Assembly: GCF_008642355.1 (NCBI RefSeq)
Contig: NZ_CP029193.1
Coordinates: 2,938,001-3,002,000, forward strand
Length of the DNA stretch: 64,000 nt
Source: Streptomyces venezuelae
Lineage (GTDB): Bacteria > Actinomycetota > Actinomycetes > Streptomycetales > Streptomycetaceae
Direction of reading: 5' to 3'
In this document: in pieces, positions 42,621-63,580 of the stretch
Layout of the letters: each line of letters starts with the position of its first letter
Numbering within the stretch: the first letter of the stretch is position 1
The notes under the pieces: model-generated
Seen by the model: only the letters and a program-made list of their open reading frames with translations
Told to the model about the DNA's origin: nothing
Database searches by the model: none
Program-made: the position numbers and the translations under genes

Positions 42621-42783
42621 CCATCATCACCCACCCGCGGCAGCCCACCGGCCCTGCCTGGCAACCCGGTCGCCGATCTCTGCGTCTAAGACGACCGGGG
42701 GATGCCTCGACCACCCTGGCGTGCGCCGTAAAGTGAGGCCGCGGTATACGCCGCATGAACAGAGACGATGGGGGACCCACCGG

Positions 42784-43758
42784 ATGCCGAAGACCGACGT
42801 GCCGGGCACTGCGGGCATAACCGGGCACCGGCTCCGCTGGTGGACCGAGCTGCCGCTGATCGTGCTGGTGTACGCCGCGTACTCCGCCGGCCGGCTGATC
42901 GTGCGGGGCGATGTGGCCAGCGCGATCGACCACGGTGTGGGGATCCTCAAGACCGAGCAGTTCCTGCGTCTCAACGCGGAGAGCCCGCTGAACCGCCTCT
43001 TCACCGCCAACGCCTGGATCGGTGTCCCCGCGGACTTCTGGTACGCCTCGCTGCACTACCTCGTCACGCCCGCCGTGCTCGTCTGGCTGTTCCGCAGCCG
43101 CGCGGTCCACTACCGGGCCGCACGCGCGTGGCTGATGATCTCCACCATGATCGGCCTCGTCGGCTTCACGCTCCTGCCGACCTGCCCGCCCCGGCTGCTG
43201 AGCGAGGGGTACGGCTTCGTCGACACCATGGCGCAGTACAGCGACTTCGGCTGGTGGGGCGGCGAGGCGAGCGCGCCGCGCGGGCTCGGCGGGATGACCA
43301 ACCAGTACGCGGCGATGCCGAGCCTGCACGTCGGGTGGGCGCTGTGGTGCGGCGTGATGCTGTGGCGGTGCGGGCGTTCGCCGCTCACCAGGGCGGCCGC
43401 CGTCGGCTACCCGCTGATCACCACGATCGTGGTCATGGGCACCGCCAACCACTACTTCTTCGACGCGCTCGCGGGTGCCGCCGTGATGGGCGTCGGGTTC
43501 CTGCTCGTGCGGCCCGTGCAGCGGCTCACGGAGCCCGTGATGGACCGTCTGCGGGCGCGTTTCCTGCGGAGCCCCGAGGTCTCGTCCGCCACAGAGTCCT
43601 CGATTGTCGGTGCCGGATGCCAGACTTCGGCAGGTGAGCGAATTCCCCGACAGCGCAAGCAGAGTGCCCCCCAGGGCGCCGAGTCGAGTGCCCGCCCAGC
43701 CGAGGCAGGACGCCCGGCCGACGTCTCCGGGGACGGCGCTCCGGCACCGGCTCACTGA
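42784..43758 (+). CDS. PAP2-superfamily membrane phosphatase / phosphotransferase
   Basis: The 324-residue membrane protein has about six hydrophobic segments. PAP2 motifs are visible: 'LLPTCPPRLL', 'YAAMPSLHVGWALW' (catalytic His) and 'GTANHYFFDALAGA' (second His, Asp). These match the inositol-phosphotransferase-like branch, which handles lipid phosphates at the membrane surface. GGGGGA precedes ATG 42784. The last ~75 residues are polar and overlap the start of the nuclease gene by about 125 bases. Confidence 0.8.
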   Translation: MPKTDVPGTAGITGHRLRWWTELPLIVLVYAAYSAGRLIVRGDVASAIDHGVGILKTEQFLRLNAESPLNRLFTANAWIGVPADFWYASLHYLVTPAVLVWLFRSRAVHYRAARAWLMISTMIGLVGFTLLPTCPPRLLSEGYGFVDTMAQYSDFGWWGGEASAPRGLGGMTNQYAAMPSLHVGWALWCGVMLWRCGRSPLTRAAAVGYPLITTIVVMGTANHYFFDALAGAAVMGVGFLLVRPVQRLTEPVMDRLRARFLRSPEVSSATESSIVGAGCQTSAGERIPRQRKQSAPQGAESSARPAEAGRPADVSGDGAPAPAH

Positions 43759-44887
43759 GCTGCGCGGCGCCGACCTGCCGCCGCGGCCGTTGGACGCCCG
43801 TGCGCTGGCCGCACTCGCGGCCAATCCGGGGTGCAGACGCCGTGCGCTGCTCGACGGCGCGGGCGTGGACAAGACGGCGCTCGCGGAATCCCTTGGCTCG
43901 CCCTCCGGCTTCGGGCAGTCCCAGTTCGCGTTCATGCGGGGCAACGCCTTCGAGGCGCGGGTCAAGGCGGACGGCGGCGCCGAGCTGCTGCGCCTGACGC
44001 ACGGCACGCTGGGCGGCGGTCCCGAGCCCGTGCCGGGCGAGGCCGCCGTGCCCGACCTGTCGGCTGCGGGCCCCGAGGGGCGTGCCGCGCGGACCGCGCT
44101 CGCGCTGCGGGAGGCGAGCGCGGCGGGCGGCTGGACGCTCCTGGACCACCCGATGCTGGTGCTGGACGTCGCGGGGACGCCCGCGTTCCTGGAGCCGGAC
44201 GCGGTGGTCGTCCATCCGGACGGCGGCTGGACGGTCGTCGAGATCAAGTCCTTCCCGATGATCGACGGCTCGGCGGACGCGGCGAAGGTCGGCGGGGCGG
44301 CGCGGCAGTCCGCGGTGTACGCACTGGCGCTCGAGCGGGTCGCCGCGCGCATGGACCCGGCGCCCCCGGTCCGCCACCACGTGCTCCTCGTCTGCCCGAA
44401 GGACTTCTCCAACCTGCCGACGGCGTCCGCGGTAGACGTCCGCAAGCAGTTGTCGGTGACCCGCCGCCAGCTGGCCCGCCTCACCCGTGTCGAGGACATC
44501 GCGGCGGAGCTCCCCGAGGGCACGACGTTCGACGTGCGGCGCCCCGCGGCGGAGCTGACGGCGGCGGTCGAGTCGGTTCCCGCGACGTACGCGCCCGAGT
44601 GCCTTGCCGCCTGCGAGCTGGCCTTCCACTGCCGGGCGCGGGCCCGCCAGGAGGGCGAGGTGACCTCCCTGGGGCGTGCGATCCGCGGCGAGCTGGGCGG
44701 TCTGACGTCCATCGGCGACGTCCTGGCCGCCGCCCGCGGGGAGGCGGGCGACCCGGACGACCCGGCGGTGGCGACCCTGCGCAGGGCGGCGGGGCTGCGG
44801 CGGGAGGCGCTCGCGGGCGTGGGCTCCCCGGGCGGCGGGGCGACCCTTCAGGATGTGCTGACGGAAGAGGGGCAACCGTGTCGCTGA
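43634..44887 (+). CDS. Cas4/RecB-type PD-(D/E)XK nuclease with four Fe-S-type cysteines
   Basis: The 417-residue protein has every hallmark of the Cas4/Dna2/AddB nuclease branch. Cys67 lies in 'NPGCRRRALL' ahead of the core, then RGNAFE (Gly103, Glu107), PDAVVV (Asp189), VEIKSF (Glu203, Lys205), QSAVYA (QxxxY, Gln225 and Tyr229). Three Cys follow in 'ECLAACELAFHC' (Cys323, 327, 333). The four Cys would ligate an iron-sulphur cluster, as in Cas4 and Dna2 (inference). No CRISPR array or other cas gene is present. The start is uncertain (GTG 43634 preferred; TTG 43604 and GTG 43610 possible) because it overlaps the PAP2 gene. It overlaps the next gene by 10 bases. Confidence 0.8.
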   Translation: MSEFPDSASRVPPRAPSRVPAQPRQDARPTSPGTALRHRLTELRGADLPPRPLDARALAALAANPGCRRRALLDGAGVDKTALAESLGSPSGFGQSQFAFMRGNAFEARVKADGGAELLRLTHGTLGGGPEPVPGEAAVPDLSAAGPEGRAARTALALREASAAGGWTLLDHPMLVLDVAGTPAFLEPDAVVVHPDGGWTVVEIKSFPMIDGSADAAKVGGAARQSAVYALALERVAARMDPAPPVRHHVLLVCPKDFSNLPTASAVDVRKQLSVTRRQLARLTRVEDIAAELPEGTTFDVRRPAAELTAAVESVPATYAPECLAACELAFHCRARARQEGEVTSLGRAIRGELGGLTSIGDVLAAARGEAGDPDDPAVATLRRAAGLRREALAGVGSPGGGATLQDVLTEEGQPCR

Positions 44888-46488
44888 TCGACAACCTCGC
44901 CCGGCTGGAGGCGGTCACCACGGGCCGCGCCCAGCCGCGCGCGACCGTGCGGCACCGGCACATCTCGCAGCGCCCCCTGGTGCTCGTCCCCCTCACCACC
45001 GCCGGTGAGGCGGGTGCGCCGCTCGGCGCGCTCGTCGGGACGGAGCGGACCTCCCCGCGGCTCCTCGTCGTGCCCCAGCCCCGCGACCGCGACCTGCGCT
45101 TCGTGTTCCTCGCGCAGCTCGCCGAGATCGTCCTGCCGTACGTGGAGGCGTACGGCGAGGATGTCGAGGCCGCCGAGCGCAACGAGACCGACCCGGAGAC
45201 GGGCAAGCGCGTCAAGGTCGAGGTCGAGCTGTGCGCGGACGCCCCGCAGCTGATCGTGCCGAGCCGCGCGGGCATCGACTTCGTGCGGCTCCTCGGCCGC
45301 TCCACGCGCTTCCGCCGCACCGCCGAGCAGGACCCCGAGGCGCCGCACCCCGCGCCGCCCCGCGTCCCCCTCCTCGGCCGCTGGCTGACACACTTCGGTG
45401 AGCGGGCCCGCGTTCCCGGCTCCTCCCTGCTCACCGCCATGACCGAGCTGCTCTCCCGGCACTGGGCGACGGGCCAGTCCAGCCTGGAGGACCAGCACCT
45501 GGGGGCCCTGCTCGCCTGGATCGAGGCCCCGGAGGGCACGTCCGGCGCCGAGGCCGCGCTCCGCGCCGAGCTGGCCCGCGACGCGGCCGGACAGCTGCTG
45601 TGCCCGCCCGCGGGACCGGCCACGGACCCGGCGTTCGACAACGACCTGCTGGCCCCCGCCATGGAGCGGTACGACCGCGCGCGCAGCGCCCTCGCCGCCG
45701 CCGAGGACGGCGTGCAGGCCGACGAGCGGCTGGCGCAGCTGACCGCCGCCGAGCGGGAGATCCACGCCCTCATCGAGAGCAGAACCCGCCCCACCTGGGA
45801 CGCGGTGTGGCGCGGCCTGGACGTCCTGTGCACGCTCCCCGAGGCGCCGCACGCCGCCGACCGGTGGACCCGCGACCGCTGGTCGTTCACCGCCCACCGC
45901 GACCGCATCACGGCCGGTGAGCCGCCGCAGCCGCGCGTCGACGACGCGGTGACGGCGGCCAACAAACTGGCCACGCGCGAGCGCGAACAGGCCCGTCTGG
46001 ACGCCCAGGAGGCCCTCGACGACCCGCTGGTCATGGCGGGCCGCCGCCTCGCCGGGGAGGCCTTCGTCGGCGAGGTGACGGAGGTCGTCATGGCGTACAG
46101 CGAGGCAAAGAGCCCACGGCCGCGCCCGCTCGTCACCGTCCGCACGGACGACCACCCGCACCTCGGCGAGCGCACGAAGGTGTACCGCGCGCTGGGCGGC
46201 AAGCCGCAGACCGCCGAGTTCGTGGCGTACGCGGGCGGGAGCGAGGGCGGCGGCACCGGCAAGGACACCGTCGTGCTGCGCATCACCGACAAGATGGGTC
46301 GCGGCAAGGAGCCCGAGCCGGGGTCCGTGCCCGGCAAGGGCGATCGGATCTGCTGGACGCTCTTCGAGCACGAGCAGCGCGGCGGCCCGAAGCTGCCCGA
46401 CCCCGAGGAGACGCCGTGGACGCACGGCGGGCCGCCGTCGGCCACCGCAGAGAGCCCCGACCCCGTGACCGCGGAGGACACCCTGTGA
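44878..46488 (+). CDS. Uncharacterised middle protein of the nuclease-helicase operon
   Basis: The 536-residue protein has no family I recognise. The N-terminal third is mixed alpha/beta ('RPLVLVPLTTAGEAGAPLGA', 'RDLRFVFLAQLAEIVLPYVE'). The middle is long charged helix, probably coiled coil (about 260-390, 'EREQARLDAQEALDDP'). The last ~140 residues alternate short strands ('RPLVTVRTDD', 'DTVVLRITDKMGRG', 'GDRICWTLFEHE') like a small beta-barrel. The beta-barrel resembles the 1B/stalk region placed before the motor in Upf1/Dna2 helicases (inference only). GTG 44878 follows AGAGGGG. The stop overlaps the helicase start (TGATG). Confidence 0.7.
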   Translation: MSLIDNLARLEAVTTGRAQPRATVRHRHISQRPLVLVPLTTAGEAGAPLGALVGTERTSPRLLVVPQPRDRDLRFVFLAQLAEIVLPYVEAYGEDVEAAERNETDPETGKRVKVEVELCADAPQLIVPSRAGIDFVRLLGRSTRFRRTAEQDPEAPHPAPPRVPLLGRWLTHFGERARVPGSSLLTAMTELLSRHWATGQSSLEDQHLGALLAWIEAPEGTSGAEAALRAELARDAAGQLLCPPAGPATDPAFDNDLLAPAMERYDRARSALAAAEDGVQADERLAQLTAAEREIHALIESRTRPTWDAVWRGLDVLCTLPEAPHAADRWTRDRWSFTAHRDRITAGEPPQPRVDDAVTAANKLATREREQARLDAQEALDDPLVMAGRRLAGEAFVGEVTEVVMAYSEAKSPRPRPLVTVRTDDHPHLGERTKVYRALGGKPQTAEFVAYAGGSEGGGTGKDTVVLRITDKMGRGKEPEPGSVPGKGDRICWTLFEHEQRGGPKLPDPEETPWTHGGPPSATAESPDPVTAEDTL

Positions 46489-47852
46489 TGCAGCTCGCCC
46501 CGCCCGCGGGCGCCTCCTTCGACCCCGGCGCCGAGGCCGCGCGCGCCACGGAGGCGATCCTCCACGACACGCTGCACGGCACGCACCGCGGCGTCGTGGT
46601 CGACTCGCCGCCCGGCGCGGGCAAGTCGACGCTCGTGGTCCGCGCGGCGCGTGAGCTGGCCGCGGCGGGCCGCCCGCTGATGGTCATCGCGCAGACGAAC
46701 GCGCAGGTCGACGACCTCGTCCTGCGGCTCGCGGAGAAGGACCCCGAGCTTCCCGTGGGCCGACTGCACAGCAGCGACCCCGATCCGTACGACAAGGCGC
46801 TCGACGACCTGGCGAACGTCCGCAAGTCCACGAAGGCGGGGGATCTCGCCGGTCTGGACGTCGTCATCTCCACCGCCGCGAAGTGGGCGCACGTCAAGGC
46901 CGACCAGCTCGACGCGCCGTGGGGGCACGCGATCGTCGACGAGGCCTACCAGATGCGGTCGGACGCGCTGCTCGCCGTGGCGGGTCTGTTCGAGCGGGCG
47001 CTGTTCGTGGGCGACCCCGGGCAGTTGGACCCGTTCTCGATCGTCGGCGCGGAACAATGGGCGGGGCTCTCGTACGATCCGTCGGCCTCCGCGGTGGCGA
47101 CGCTCCTCGCCCACAACCCCGACCTGCCGCAGCACCGCCTGCCGGTGTCCTGGCGGCTGCCCGCGTCGGCCGCGCCCTTGGTCTCGGACGCGTTCTACCC
47201 GTACACGCCGTTCCGCAGTGGCACGGGGCCCGGGGACCGCGCCCTCCGCTTCGCGGTGGAGTCGGACGGTTCGGGCGCCGACCGGGTGATCGACGAGGCG
47301 GCGGAGTCCGGCTGGGGCCTGCTCGAACTCCCGGCGCGCAACACGCCGCGCACGGACCCGGAGGCGGTCCGGGCGCTGGCCCAGGTGGTCCGCCGCCTCC
47401 TGGACCGCGGCGGTGCGGCGACGTCGGAGCGCGACCCCGACCCCACCCCGCTCACCGCGGACCGGATCGCGGTGGGCACGGCCCACCGCGACCAGGCGGC
47501 GGCGGTGCGGGCCGCGCTGGCGGACGTCGGCGTCCTGGACGTCACGGTGGACACGGCGAACCGCCTCCAAGGCCGCGAGTACGACGTGACGGTGGTCCTG
47601 CACCCGCTCTCGGGCCGCCCCGACGCGACGGCGTTCCACCTGGAGACGGGCCGCCTCTGCGTCCTGGCGTCCCGGCACCGTCACGCGTGCATCGTGGTCT
47701 GCCGGGCAGGCGTCAGCGCCCTGCTCGACGACCACCCGTCGACGGAACCGGTCCAGCTGGGCGTCACGGTGAAATTCCCCGACGGCTGGGAAGCGAACCA
47801 CGCGGTCCTGTCCCGCTTGTCGGAACACCGTGTGCCGTGGCAGCCCCATTAG
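46488..47852 (+). CDS. Upf1/Dna2-type superfamily 1 helicase
   Basis: The 454-residue P-loop motor has Walker A PPGAGKST (residues 41-48), motif Ia 'IAQTNAQVDDLV', and Walker B as DEAYQ (151-155), close to the DEAxQ form of SF1B helicases. Motif III is GDPGQLDP (175-182), motif IV 'LPVSWRLPASAAPLV', motif V 'TVDTANRLQGREYDVTVV' and a motif VI-like 'LASRHRHACIVV', where one Arg could be the finger. It is short: only the two RecA-like domains are present, with no N-terminal nuclease or barrel. It is coupled to the previous gene by TGATG, so the operon products probably act together on DNA ends or loops. Confidence 0.82.
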   Translation: MQLAPPAGASFDPGAEAARATEAILHDTLHGTHRGVVVDSPPGAGKSTLVVRAARELAAAGRPLMVIAQTNAQVDDLVLRLAEKDPELPVGRLHSSDPDPYDKALDDLANVRKSTKAGDLAGLDVVISTAAKWAHVKADQLDAPWGHAIVDEAYQMRSDALLAVAGLFERALFVGDPGQLDPFSIVGAEQWAGLSYDPSASAVATLLAHNPDLPQHRLPVSWRLPASAAPLVSDAFYPYTPFRSGTGPGDRALRFAVESDGSGADRVIDEAAESGWGLLELPARNTPRTDPEAVRALAQVVRRLLDRGGAATSERDPDPTPLTADRIAVGTAHRDQAAAVRAALADVGVLDVTVDTANRLQGREYDVTVVLHPLSGRPDATAFHLETGRLCVLASRHRHACIVVCRAGVSALLDDHPSTEPVQLGVTVKFPDGWEANHAVLSRLSEHRVPWQPH

Positions 47853-48383: not shown

Positions 48384-48409
48384 CCATTTCCGGTAACCCC
48401 CGGAAATGG
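48384..48409. promoter_or_regulatory. Long inverted repeat before the primase/polymerase-like gene
   Basis: CCATTTCCGG and CCGGAAATGG are perfect 10-base arms with a 6-base spacer (TAACCC), ending 30 bases before the start codon at 48439. It could be an operator overlapping the promoter or a hairpin in the leader. Confidence 0.55.
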
Positions 48410-48438
48410 AACCCTCACTACCGGTAGACGTACCTGCC

Positions 48439-49083
48439 ATGAGCAGCAGTACTTCCCTCCACCCCGCTCCGACCCCCACCCACGGCGCCCCGGCTCCCAC
48501 CGGGCCCGCCCACGACTCCTGCGACGACGTCACCGCCGACGGAGCCGCCTGGCTCGCCTCCGCCGAAACGTATCCGCGCAGCGCGCTCACCCACTGGCGC
48601 AGCCGGCCCGGCGCCCCGGCCGTCCTCCCCTGCGGCTCCGCGTTCGACGTGGTCAGCGTCCCGGCCGTCTTCGGGCGGCGGATGCTCGACCGGTTATGGG
48701 AGGAGGGTCCGGGATCGGGCCCGGTCGCCGCGCACCGGGGCCGCGTCCTGCTCTTCGCCGCGCCCGGCACCGCGCAGCGCCTGCCCGCCCTCCTGGAGTG
48801 GGAGGAGTGGGGAGGAGGCACGGAGGTCCCGCCGGTGCTCTGCCACGGCACGGGCGACGCCGTCACCGTGCCGCCGCTCGCCGCCACCGGCCCCGGCGGA
48901 CGGCTGGAATCCCGGTGGCTCGTCGCCCCCGGCACCCGGCACCCCTGGCTCCCGGGGCCCGAGGTCATCCTCTGGGCCTGCGTCCGCGCGGCCCGCTCGG
49001 CGGCGTCGTCCGCCGTGCGCGTATCGATTTTTCCTGGCGGCGATCAGAGTGCTAAGGTCTACGACGTCAGCAGGCGCCGCTAG
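48439..49083 (+). CDS. Bifunctional primase/polymerase-like (N-terminal) protein with TTA codon
   Basis: The 214-residue protein resembles the short actinobacterial proteins annotated as primase/polymerase N-terminal domain ('GAAWLASAETYPRSALTHWR', 'AVLPCGSAFDVVSVPAVFG', 'GRVLLFAAPGTAQRLPALL', 'GTRHPWLPGPEVILWACV'). The acidic triad of active Prim-Pol enzymes is not evident, so it may be a non-catalytic relative. Leu in 'MLDRLWEEG' is TTA (48694-48696), making translation bldA-dependent. The last codons and stop lie inside the tRNA-Lys gene by 10 bases, and the tRNA promoter must lie inside this coding region. Confidence 0.6.
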   Translation: MSSSTSLHPAPTPTHGAPAPTGPAHDSCDDVTADGAAWLASAETYPRSALTHWRSRPGAPAVLPCGSAFDVVSVPAVFGRRMLDRLWEEGPGSGPVAAHRGRVLLFAAPGTAQRLPALLEWEEWGGGTEVPPVLCHGTGDAVTVPPLAATGPGGRLESRWLVAPGTRHPWLPGPEVILWACVRAARSAASSAVRVSIFPGGDQSAKVYDVSRRR

Positions 49084-49147
49084 CTCAGTTGGTTAGAGCA
49101 GCTGACTCTTAATCAGCGGGTCCGGGGTTCGAGTCCCTGGCGGCGCA
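49074..49147 (+). tRNA. tRNA-Lys (CTT), first copy
   Basis: The cloverleaf is complete: acceptor GCGCCGC/GCGGCGC, anticodon loop CTCTTAA with anticodon CTT, T-loop TTCGAGT, discriminator A, no encoded CCA. It is identical over 74 bases, plus 8 bases of 5' flank, to the inverted copy at 63507-63580. A TAAGGT hexamer about 20 bases upstream may be the -10. Confidence 0.96.
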
Positions 49148-49157
49148 CAGACGGTGA

Positions 49158-63497: not shown

Positions 63498-63506
63498 ATT
63501 CGCAAG

Positions 63507-63580
63507 TGCGCCGCCAGGGACTCGAACCCCGGACCCGCTGATTAAGAGTCAGCTGCTCTAACCAACTGAGCTAGCGGCGC
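63507..63580 (-). tRNA. tRNA-Lys (CTT), second copy, inverted
   Basis: It is identical in all 74 bases to the copy at 49074-49147 but on the other strand. Upstream (minus strand) TACTAT lies in the AT-rich stretch around 63595-63602 and is a good -10. The shared identity extends 8 bases into the 5' flank. Confidence 0.96.

Follow-up and report, generated by a model that had tools for sequence, protein, structure and literature searches.

A candidate split Dna2-like nuclease-helicase in Streptomyces

A 64,000-nucleotide stretch (i.e. the window) of the 8.02-Mb single-contig chromosome of Streptomyces venezuelae contains, at positions 43634-47852, an operon of three overlapping plus-strand genes, termed here NUC, MID and HEL. 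These genes probably encode a Dna2-like nuclease-helicase in three subunits that unwinds and degrades DNA ends, with the window copy being a chromosomal version and accessory copies occurring elsewhere with Wadjet genes. An earlier note, made from the letters of this stretch alone, had proposed a split Dna2-like machine at this locus. The coordinates, overlaps and motifs given in that note were reproduced (Table 1), and the proposal is supported by the prediction in MID of a barrel of the kind that HEL is without. None of the three outcomes that the note had named as refutations was encountered. The NUC and MID frames overlap by 10 nt and the MID stop and HEL start have one base in common (i.e. 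TGATG).

HEL begins just ahead of Walker A and lacks the 1B barrel of superfamily 1B (SF1B) helicases. Its best stretch of similarity to IGHMBP2 starts at IGHMBP2 residue 204, and structure comparison aligned the MID barrel to IGHMBP2 residues 39-140, suggesting that the MID barrel and HEL are complementary. Assignment of HEL to the Upf1/Dna2 branch of SF1, as given in the earlier note, was upheld by family matches to AAA_11, AAA_12 and AAA_30 (Pfam) and by its relatives: the best PDB relative by sequence was Dna2 (5eaw, E 5.1e-7) and the top matches of a 38-row HEL profile were IGHMBP2 (3e-11) and Dna2 (1e-10). A weak PADLOC match to MkoA of Mokosh (5e-8) covered the motor core only.

Table 1. 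Positions of the operon genes, their motifs and domains, and flanking features in the window (conservation as fractions of alignment rows)
Feature	Position	Strand	Description
NUC	43634 (GTG)-44887	+	Cas4/Dna2-type iron-sulphur (Fe-S) PD-(D/E)XK nuclease, 417 aa
NUC C67	43832-43834	+	First cluster cysteine; 41/42 C, one X
NUC RGNAFE, residues 102-107	43937-43954	+	R 41/42, G 39/42, N 32/42, F 42/42, E 39/42
NUC EPD...EIK, residues 187-205	44192-44248	+	Catalytic motifs; D189 42/42, E203 39/42, K205 40/42
NUC CxxxCxxxxxC	44600-44632	+	Cluster cysteines C323/C327/C333, each 42/42
MID	44878 (GTG)-46488	+	536 aa; predicted pseudo-exonuclease domain, helix and SF1B-type 1B barrel
MID residues 31-379	44968-46014	+	Fold of the RNase-H/DnaQ kind, resembling exonuclease domains of family-B DNA polymerases; lacks the ExoI carboxylates
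MID residues 387-497	46036-46368	+	Beta barrel like SF1B domain 1B (IGHMBP2, Sen1, SETX)
HEL	46488 (ATG)-47852	+	SF1B helicase core (RecA1+RecA2), 454 aa, without 1B barrel
HEL Walker A, GAGKST	46614-46631	+	Invariant in 38/38 except S48 (34 S, 4 T); A45 invariant
HEL motif II DEAYQ, residues 152-156	46938-46952	+	38/38
HEL motif III GDPGQL, residues 176-181	47010-47027	+	38/38
PAP2 phosphatase frame	42721-43758		Upstream of NUC, overlapping NUC start
116-aa frame			Downstream of operon
Small Prim-Pol-like frame	48406-49083		Downstream of operon; PF09250, E 1.6e-7; adjoins tRNA-Lys
tRNA-Lys(ctt)	49074-49148		Downstream of operon
Second tRNA-Lys(ctt)	63506-63580

Predicted properties of NUC and MID

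The description of NUC in the earlier note, as a PD-(D/E)XK nuclease with one-plus-three cysteines, was borne out by conservation of the motifs in a 42-row alignment (in which A105 of RGNAFE was not counted) and by a predicted structure of the Cas4 type (i.e. a fold as in Cas4, Exo5, AddB and Dna2, and also AddB/AdnA-like). The PD and EIK motifs occupy residues 188-189 and 203-205, respectively, and a Q225xxxY229 motif was present with Q225 in 41/42 and Y229 in 42/42 rows. No Pfam or NCBIfam match was obtained for NUC at E ≤ 1, the Cas4 model included, and the best match across Pfam, NCBIfam, PADLOC and PHROGs was a PHROGs exonuclease (E 0.02). Comparison of the NUC profile with PDB returned only designed repeat proteins (positions 20-48) and one match at E 0.42, all of which were taken as spurious. 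As the first ~30 residues have low model confidence, align poorly and overlap the PAP2 frame, the true start of NUC is probably a little downstream of 43634. In two loci (L035 and L036) the NUC proteins are near-identical and carry E to L and K to R changes; in L053 an E to A change was present.

MID had been described as belonging to no known family. This stands for Pfam, NCBIfam, PADLOC and PHROGs, as the best match was to Pfam Caa3_CtaG at E 0.035 (below the family cut-off), no match to Pfam RNase_H_2 was detected, and NCBIfam, PADLOC and PHROGs contained no matching family. A MID profile also found no relative in PDB. The description does not stand for the predicted fold, which was recognisable in two parts (i.e. 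the exonuclease-like domain and the barrel of Table 1) in an AlphaFold2 model with a mean predicted local distance difference test score of 89.3 and a predicted template modelling score of 0.87. The exonuclease-like fold is without a catalytic DxE and has no acid at the ExoI strand, the register being taken from VIA ranges such that residue correspondence is approximate. Dna2 was not among the 50 VIA rows listed for MID, which excludes nothing.

Relatives at E ≤ 0.001 numbered 3,098 for NUC and 3,699 for MID, each among ~8,000 scored candidates. Together with the co-conservation of the set described below, these numbers indicate that neither gene is a chance reading frame. Relatives of MID were found in 0/50,697 phage records and 3/72,556 plasmid records (one being an 11.9-Mb Nonomuraea record), and comparison of the MID fold with viral folds gave no match at E ≤ 0.001. 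Where the best 120 copies each of NUC and MID carried public names, these were hypothetical, secreted or uncharacterized protein. A few MID proteins (P0258, P0286 and P0343) are publicly named as cytochrome c oxidase assembly or membrane proteins, names that perhaps derive from the weak Caa3_CtaG match.

Co-conservation of the three genes

Co-conservation, which the earlier note had put forward as a check, was evident among 296 genomes of the class. MID was present in 58 of these, including 30/31 Streptomyces, and NUC in the same 58 plus one marginal extra (G155, E 6e-4). HEL was present in 56 of the 57 MID genomes covered (all but G133) and adjoined MID in 54; it lay ~36 and ~49 kb from MID in G082 and G175, respectively, and the one locus without HEL (L033) was cut by a contig end. 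HEL was also detected in 12/12 MID genomes tested, even where non-adjacent. The only Streptomyces genome without MID (G213) was also without NUC and HEL. With script-chosen starts, the frames overlapped in 53/65 loci for NUC-MID and 42/58 for MID-HEL (median -4 nt).

A phylum-wide draw contained MID in 12/296 genomes, one of which was outside the class (G535, E 1.3e-10). In the locus of this genome (L219), NUC (23% identity) and HEL (36%) flank a divergent MID with the order kept. Beside the operon of L219 (5059-6753, minus strand) is a 564-aa protein with a Pfam RNase_H_2 domain and, by eye, Cas4-like cysteines.

Core Streptomyces loci were extended to 19 kb for 19 of the 30 MID-bearing Streptomyces genomes (L220-L238), with every row kept. 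PGM was a neighbour in all 19, S116 in 17, PRIMPOL in 16 and PAP2 in 12, whilst neither Jet nor SbcCD genes were detected in these loci. No CRISPR-type repeat array was present in the window, cas genes not being searched one by one, in agreement with the independence from CRISPR proposed earlier. A tblastn search with 17 Jet queries detected no JetA-D genes in window positions 30001-64000. An SbcD relative with 35% identity is encoded elsewhere in the window genome and could possibly pair with the window operon, though unlinked.

An accessory lineage adjoins SbcCD and Wadjet genes

A second lineage of the operon has a fourth gene (i.e. U) and adjoining SbcCD (Mre11-Rad50) genes, whose identities are supported by Pfam. 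On two Streptomyces plasmids, with a MID copy at 38-39% identity, JetA-D come after U-NUC-MID-HEL, and SbcCD lie upstream in divergent orientation; the SbcCD genes of one plasmid locus (L003) are broken into several frames. Gene U encodes ~280 aa and was found in 17 of the 58 MID-bearing genomes: in 16 it is full-length and lies immediately before NUC, and in G246 a broken remnant is left. The window genome contained a single fragment matching gene U (E 0.026). Matches for U were to a UVR motif (weak, E 0.081) and to coiled coils (E 0.03 and worse).

A scan with the accessory MID of one genome per species (84,980 species) detected 89 relatives and returned 79 loci, in which NUC was present in 78, HEL within reach in 46, U in 43 and SbcD in 31. 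These loci were combined with three from the plasmid collection, 32 from genomes and window positions 30001-64000 into 115 rows, which are not a random sample as 79/115 came from a search with the accessory MID. SbcCD was present at 37/115 rows. Wadjet genes were found at 31 of these 37 as compared to 1 of the 78 rows without SbcCD (L086), the exceptions with SbcCD and no Jet genes being L037, L038, L091, L092, L093 and L145. Restriction to rows with ≥7 kb on both sides gave Jet genes in 25/30 SbcCD rows and 1/67 others. Some rows are weak: L056 repeats L068, L079-L081 are near-identical copies from one strain, L073 has only a 26-27% JetC2 stretch, L143 has Jet genes in pieces and L062 has JetA2 alone at an edge. 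With repeats counted once and L073 counted as having none, 27/34 SbcCD rows had Wadjet genes. The L079, L080 and L081 copies each combine the module with type I Wadjet and occupy different contigs within a single Streptomyces genome.

All three Wadjet types were represented among the 31 rows (15 type I, 8 type II and 8 type III). PADLOC models confirmed JetA1, JetC1, JetD1, JetA2, JetB2, JetC2 and JetA3 among the scanned proteins; the gene after JetA3 matched no PADLOC model and the type III calls rest on JetA3 (8/8 loci). In a MID tree of 78 rows built by a quick method, the Streptomyces core formed one clade (support of 100) and 31 rows, 28 with Jet genes, formed another (100), with L062, L037, L038 and L145 outside the latter. 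NUC and HEL trees also resolved the Streptomyces core and a mostly Wadjet-linked group as clades (95-100). Across the MID tree, the 29 rows with Wadjet genes showed at least 9 changes of Wadjet type; an initial value of 14 was lowered since it had counted 'no Wadjet' as a type. Sister rows of different type included L075 (I) and L084 (II) with support of 100, and L069 (III) and L070 (I) with 98. An independent-pairs test of SbcCD versus Wadjet yielded four pairs, too few to decide.

Individual loci showed other arrangements. In L145 (8026-17167), U-NUC-MID-HEL-SbcD-SbcC are all on one strand with SbcCD downstream and not divergent upstream. A GmrSD_N (DUF262) gene, like PADLOC HEC-05, is inserted between MID and HEL in L103 (11577-13919), and L102 (11579-13915) has a frame starting at the same point. 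Genes for DarT and DarG (macrodomain) lie upstream of the operon in L103 (1685-3450), and frames with similar starts are present in L104 (16741-18503). One 531-aa frame of L093 (9668-11263) fuses the NUC start to the later part of MID and may be a decayed copy, a deletion or an assembly error. A role in telomere processing was considered as some accessory copies are near linear replicon ends (e.g. L092), and was dropped because the operon also occurs in genera with circular chromosomes (Micromonospora and Dactylosporangium).

A proposed mechanism and its alternatives

We infer that NUC, MID and HEL act as one complex, with polarity, substrate and order of action as follows. HEL, from knowledge of its family, would be an SF1B motor tracking 5'-3' on single-stranded DNA, and the MID barrel would complete this motor, which has none of its own. 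The dead exonuclease fold of MID probably grips DNA or scaffolds the partners, and NUC would act as an Fe-S exonuclease, threading and cutting the strand fed by HEL. The complex would load at DNA ends, either alone or after Mre11-Rad50, unwind them and then resect or degrade. The window copy would be the vertically inherited chromosomal version, with a role in end processing during repair or chromosome maintenance. Copies with U and SbcCD would work with Wadjet: after Wadjet has linearised a plasmid, its ends would be opened by SbcCD and what is left would be degraded by the split Dna2. The earlier note had left end processing, replication and defence side by side as functions; the location of sister copies beside SbcCD and Wadjet favours DNA-end processing or degradation over replication.

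To our knowledge, what removes Wadjet-cut DNA is an open question, and the module provides candidates for this clearance beside all three Wadjet types. Wadjet cuts circular and not linear DNA (PMC10586767). We regard it as a serious possibility, if falling just short of a probable one, that bacteria have here a dedicated counterpart of Mre11-Rad50 plus Dna2 resection. In this reading, SbcCD, U and the three-part Dna2 would constitute a portable unit for DNA clearance, compatible with Wadjet of any type, that destroys the plasmids linearised by Wadjet, and the Streptomyces chromosomal copy would act likewise on the ends of broken chromosomes, taking the place of a single-chain Dna2. The module would further show that the nuclease, barrel and motor of Dna2 are able to function as separate subunits, and would put a name to a conserved DNA-end-processing operon of Streptomyces.

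Several observations weigh against a three-subunit Dna2-like machine acting with Wadjet. Foldseek gave no match for the MID model at E ≤ 0.001, and no fused MID-HEL protein was found, the best of 387 scored proteins reaching 980 bits (i.e. the same as MID alone). A profile of 11 single-chain proteins of the TM0106 family (from 20 regions fetched) matched NUC weakly (2.2e-4, probability 45), and HHalign found no match between this family and MID. The changed catalytic residues of the L035, L036 and L053 NUC copies raise the prospect that some complexes may be without nuclease activity. Beside the window copy itself, neither SbcCD nor Wadjet genes were detected. DUF3375 (JetA1) was over its cut-off in 54/296 class genomes, six of which also had MID, and none of this sample had JetA1 and MID on one contig; type I Wadjet therefore does not generally include the module. 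In addition, ferredoxin-reductase barrels scored within 1 Z of the 1B match of MID, which amounts to a tie, and in Micromonospora-type genomes HEL and MID are separated by distances ranging from kilobases to tens of kb. These last two points, and the gene inserted between MID and HEL in L103, would suit an explanation in which MID is an unrelated scaffold whose barrel is a common fold, HEL is independent, and the genes are co-transcribed without forming one machine. We consider this improbable, given that MID carries the domain absent from HEL, that MID and HEL co-occur even when non-adjacent, and that the gene order is kept at low identity in L219.

The neighbours of other operon copies (i.e. 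SbcCD and Wadjet genes, and in single cases DarTG and the GmrSD_N gene in L103 or a DUF4011-type helicase in L102) could indicate that the window operon, too, is a system of defence against phages or plasmids, which has happened to become fixed in Streptomyces chromosomes. Conservation as seen in the window lineage, a single clade in nearly all Streptomyces genomes, is unusual for defence genes, and every extended core locus retains PGM and shows no Wadjet or SbcCD gene; a defence role for the window copy is thus unlikely. HEL could also act, like Upf1, Sen1 or Senataxin, on RNA or R-loops with NUC trimming the displaced DNA strand, an activity that the membership of HEL and the MID barrel in the Upf1/IGHMBP2/Sen1 group would permit. 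Dna2 belongs to this same helicase group (PMC4716839), the partner NUC is of a DNA-exonuclease type and sister copies accompany DNA-end and DNA-loop machines, such that a role on RNA is very doubtful. A Dna2-like machine for DNA ends remains the preferred reading.

Comparison with known systems

No description of this module, and no described system of the same three components, was found among the best-ranked results of an open-licence literature search, and work outside these may exist; the earlier note had likewise presented the system as a candidate undescribed one. Among nuclease-helicase pairs in PADLOC (e.g. Mokosh), NUC and MID had no match at E ≤ 1 and HEL alone matched, weakly. NUC resembles Cas4 in its predicted Fe-S nuclease fold and differs in matching no Cas4 family model and in the absence of a CRISPR-like array from the window. 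A phylogenomic study of Cas4 describes UvrD-Cas4 fusions and a link to COG1205 (PMC5704561); the words actinobacteria, Streptomyces and COG2251 are absent from its main text. Wadjet (JetABCD, types I-III) is a neighbour of most SbcCD-bearing copies, and none of its genes is part of the operon.

AddAB and AdnAB share with the operon an Fe-S nuclease of AddB/AdnA-like fold, a helicase partner and presumed end resection. Their motors are SF1A UvrD-type, whereas HEL is an SF1B AAA_11/12 protein. HerA and NurA have unrelated folds. The archaeal Mre11-Rad50-HerA-NurA operon is similar in linking Mre11-Rad50 genes to a nuclease and a helicase (PMC2288612); in the present system this linkage occurs in accessory copies only.

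Single-chain proteins of the TM0106 family (TIGR03491 plus AAA_11/12) contain, in order, a RecB/Cas4-like nuclease, an RNase-H-fold domain and an SF1B helicase. Two actinobacterial proteins over the TIGR03491 cut-off had this order (i.e. nuclease, RNase_H_2, AAA_11/12). These proteins differ from the operon in being one chain of ~1,150 aa and in an RNase_H_2 domain that keeps DxE (D331/E333 invariant in 11 rows), which MID is without. HEL matched the single-chain profile at 2.4e-23, indicating homologous helicases. Neither NUC nor MID matched TIGR03491 at E ≤ 1 and the window genome had 0 matches. In 148 genomes, assumed to be G000-G147, TIGR03491 was over cut-off in 1/25 MID genomes versus 43/123 others (Fisher P = 0.0013, uncorrected for kinship). 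Descent of MID from a single-chain protein, as its fold and position might suggest, is only a guess since the profile comparison of MID gave nothing.

A likeness in architecture is seen to Dna2, which consists of a nuclease, a barrel on a stalk of two long helices and then a ~450-residue helicase (PMC4716839). The operon differs in using three chains where Dna2 has one, in an extra pseudo-exonuclease domain in MID and in having no recognised OB domain in its proteins. The two share an Fe-S PD-(D/E)XK nuclease and an SF1B motor, and with the barrel predicted in MID the gene order NUC-MID-HEL would be the domain order of Dna2.

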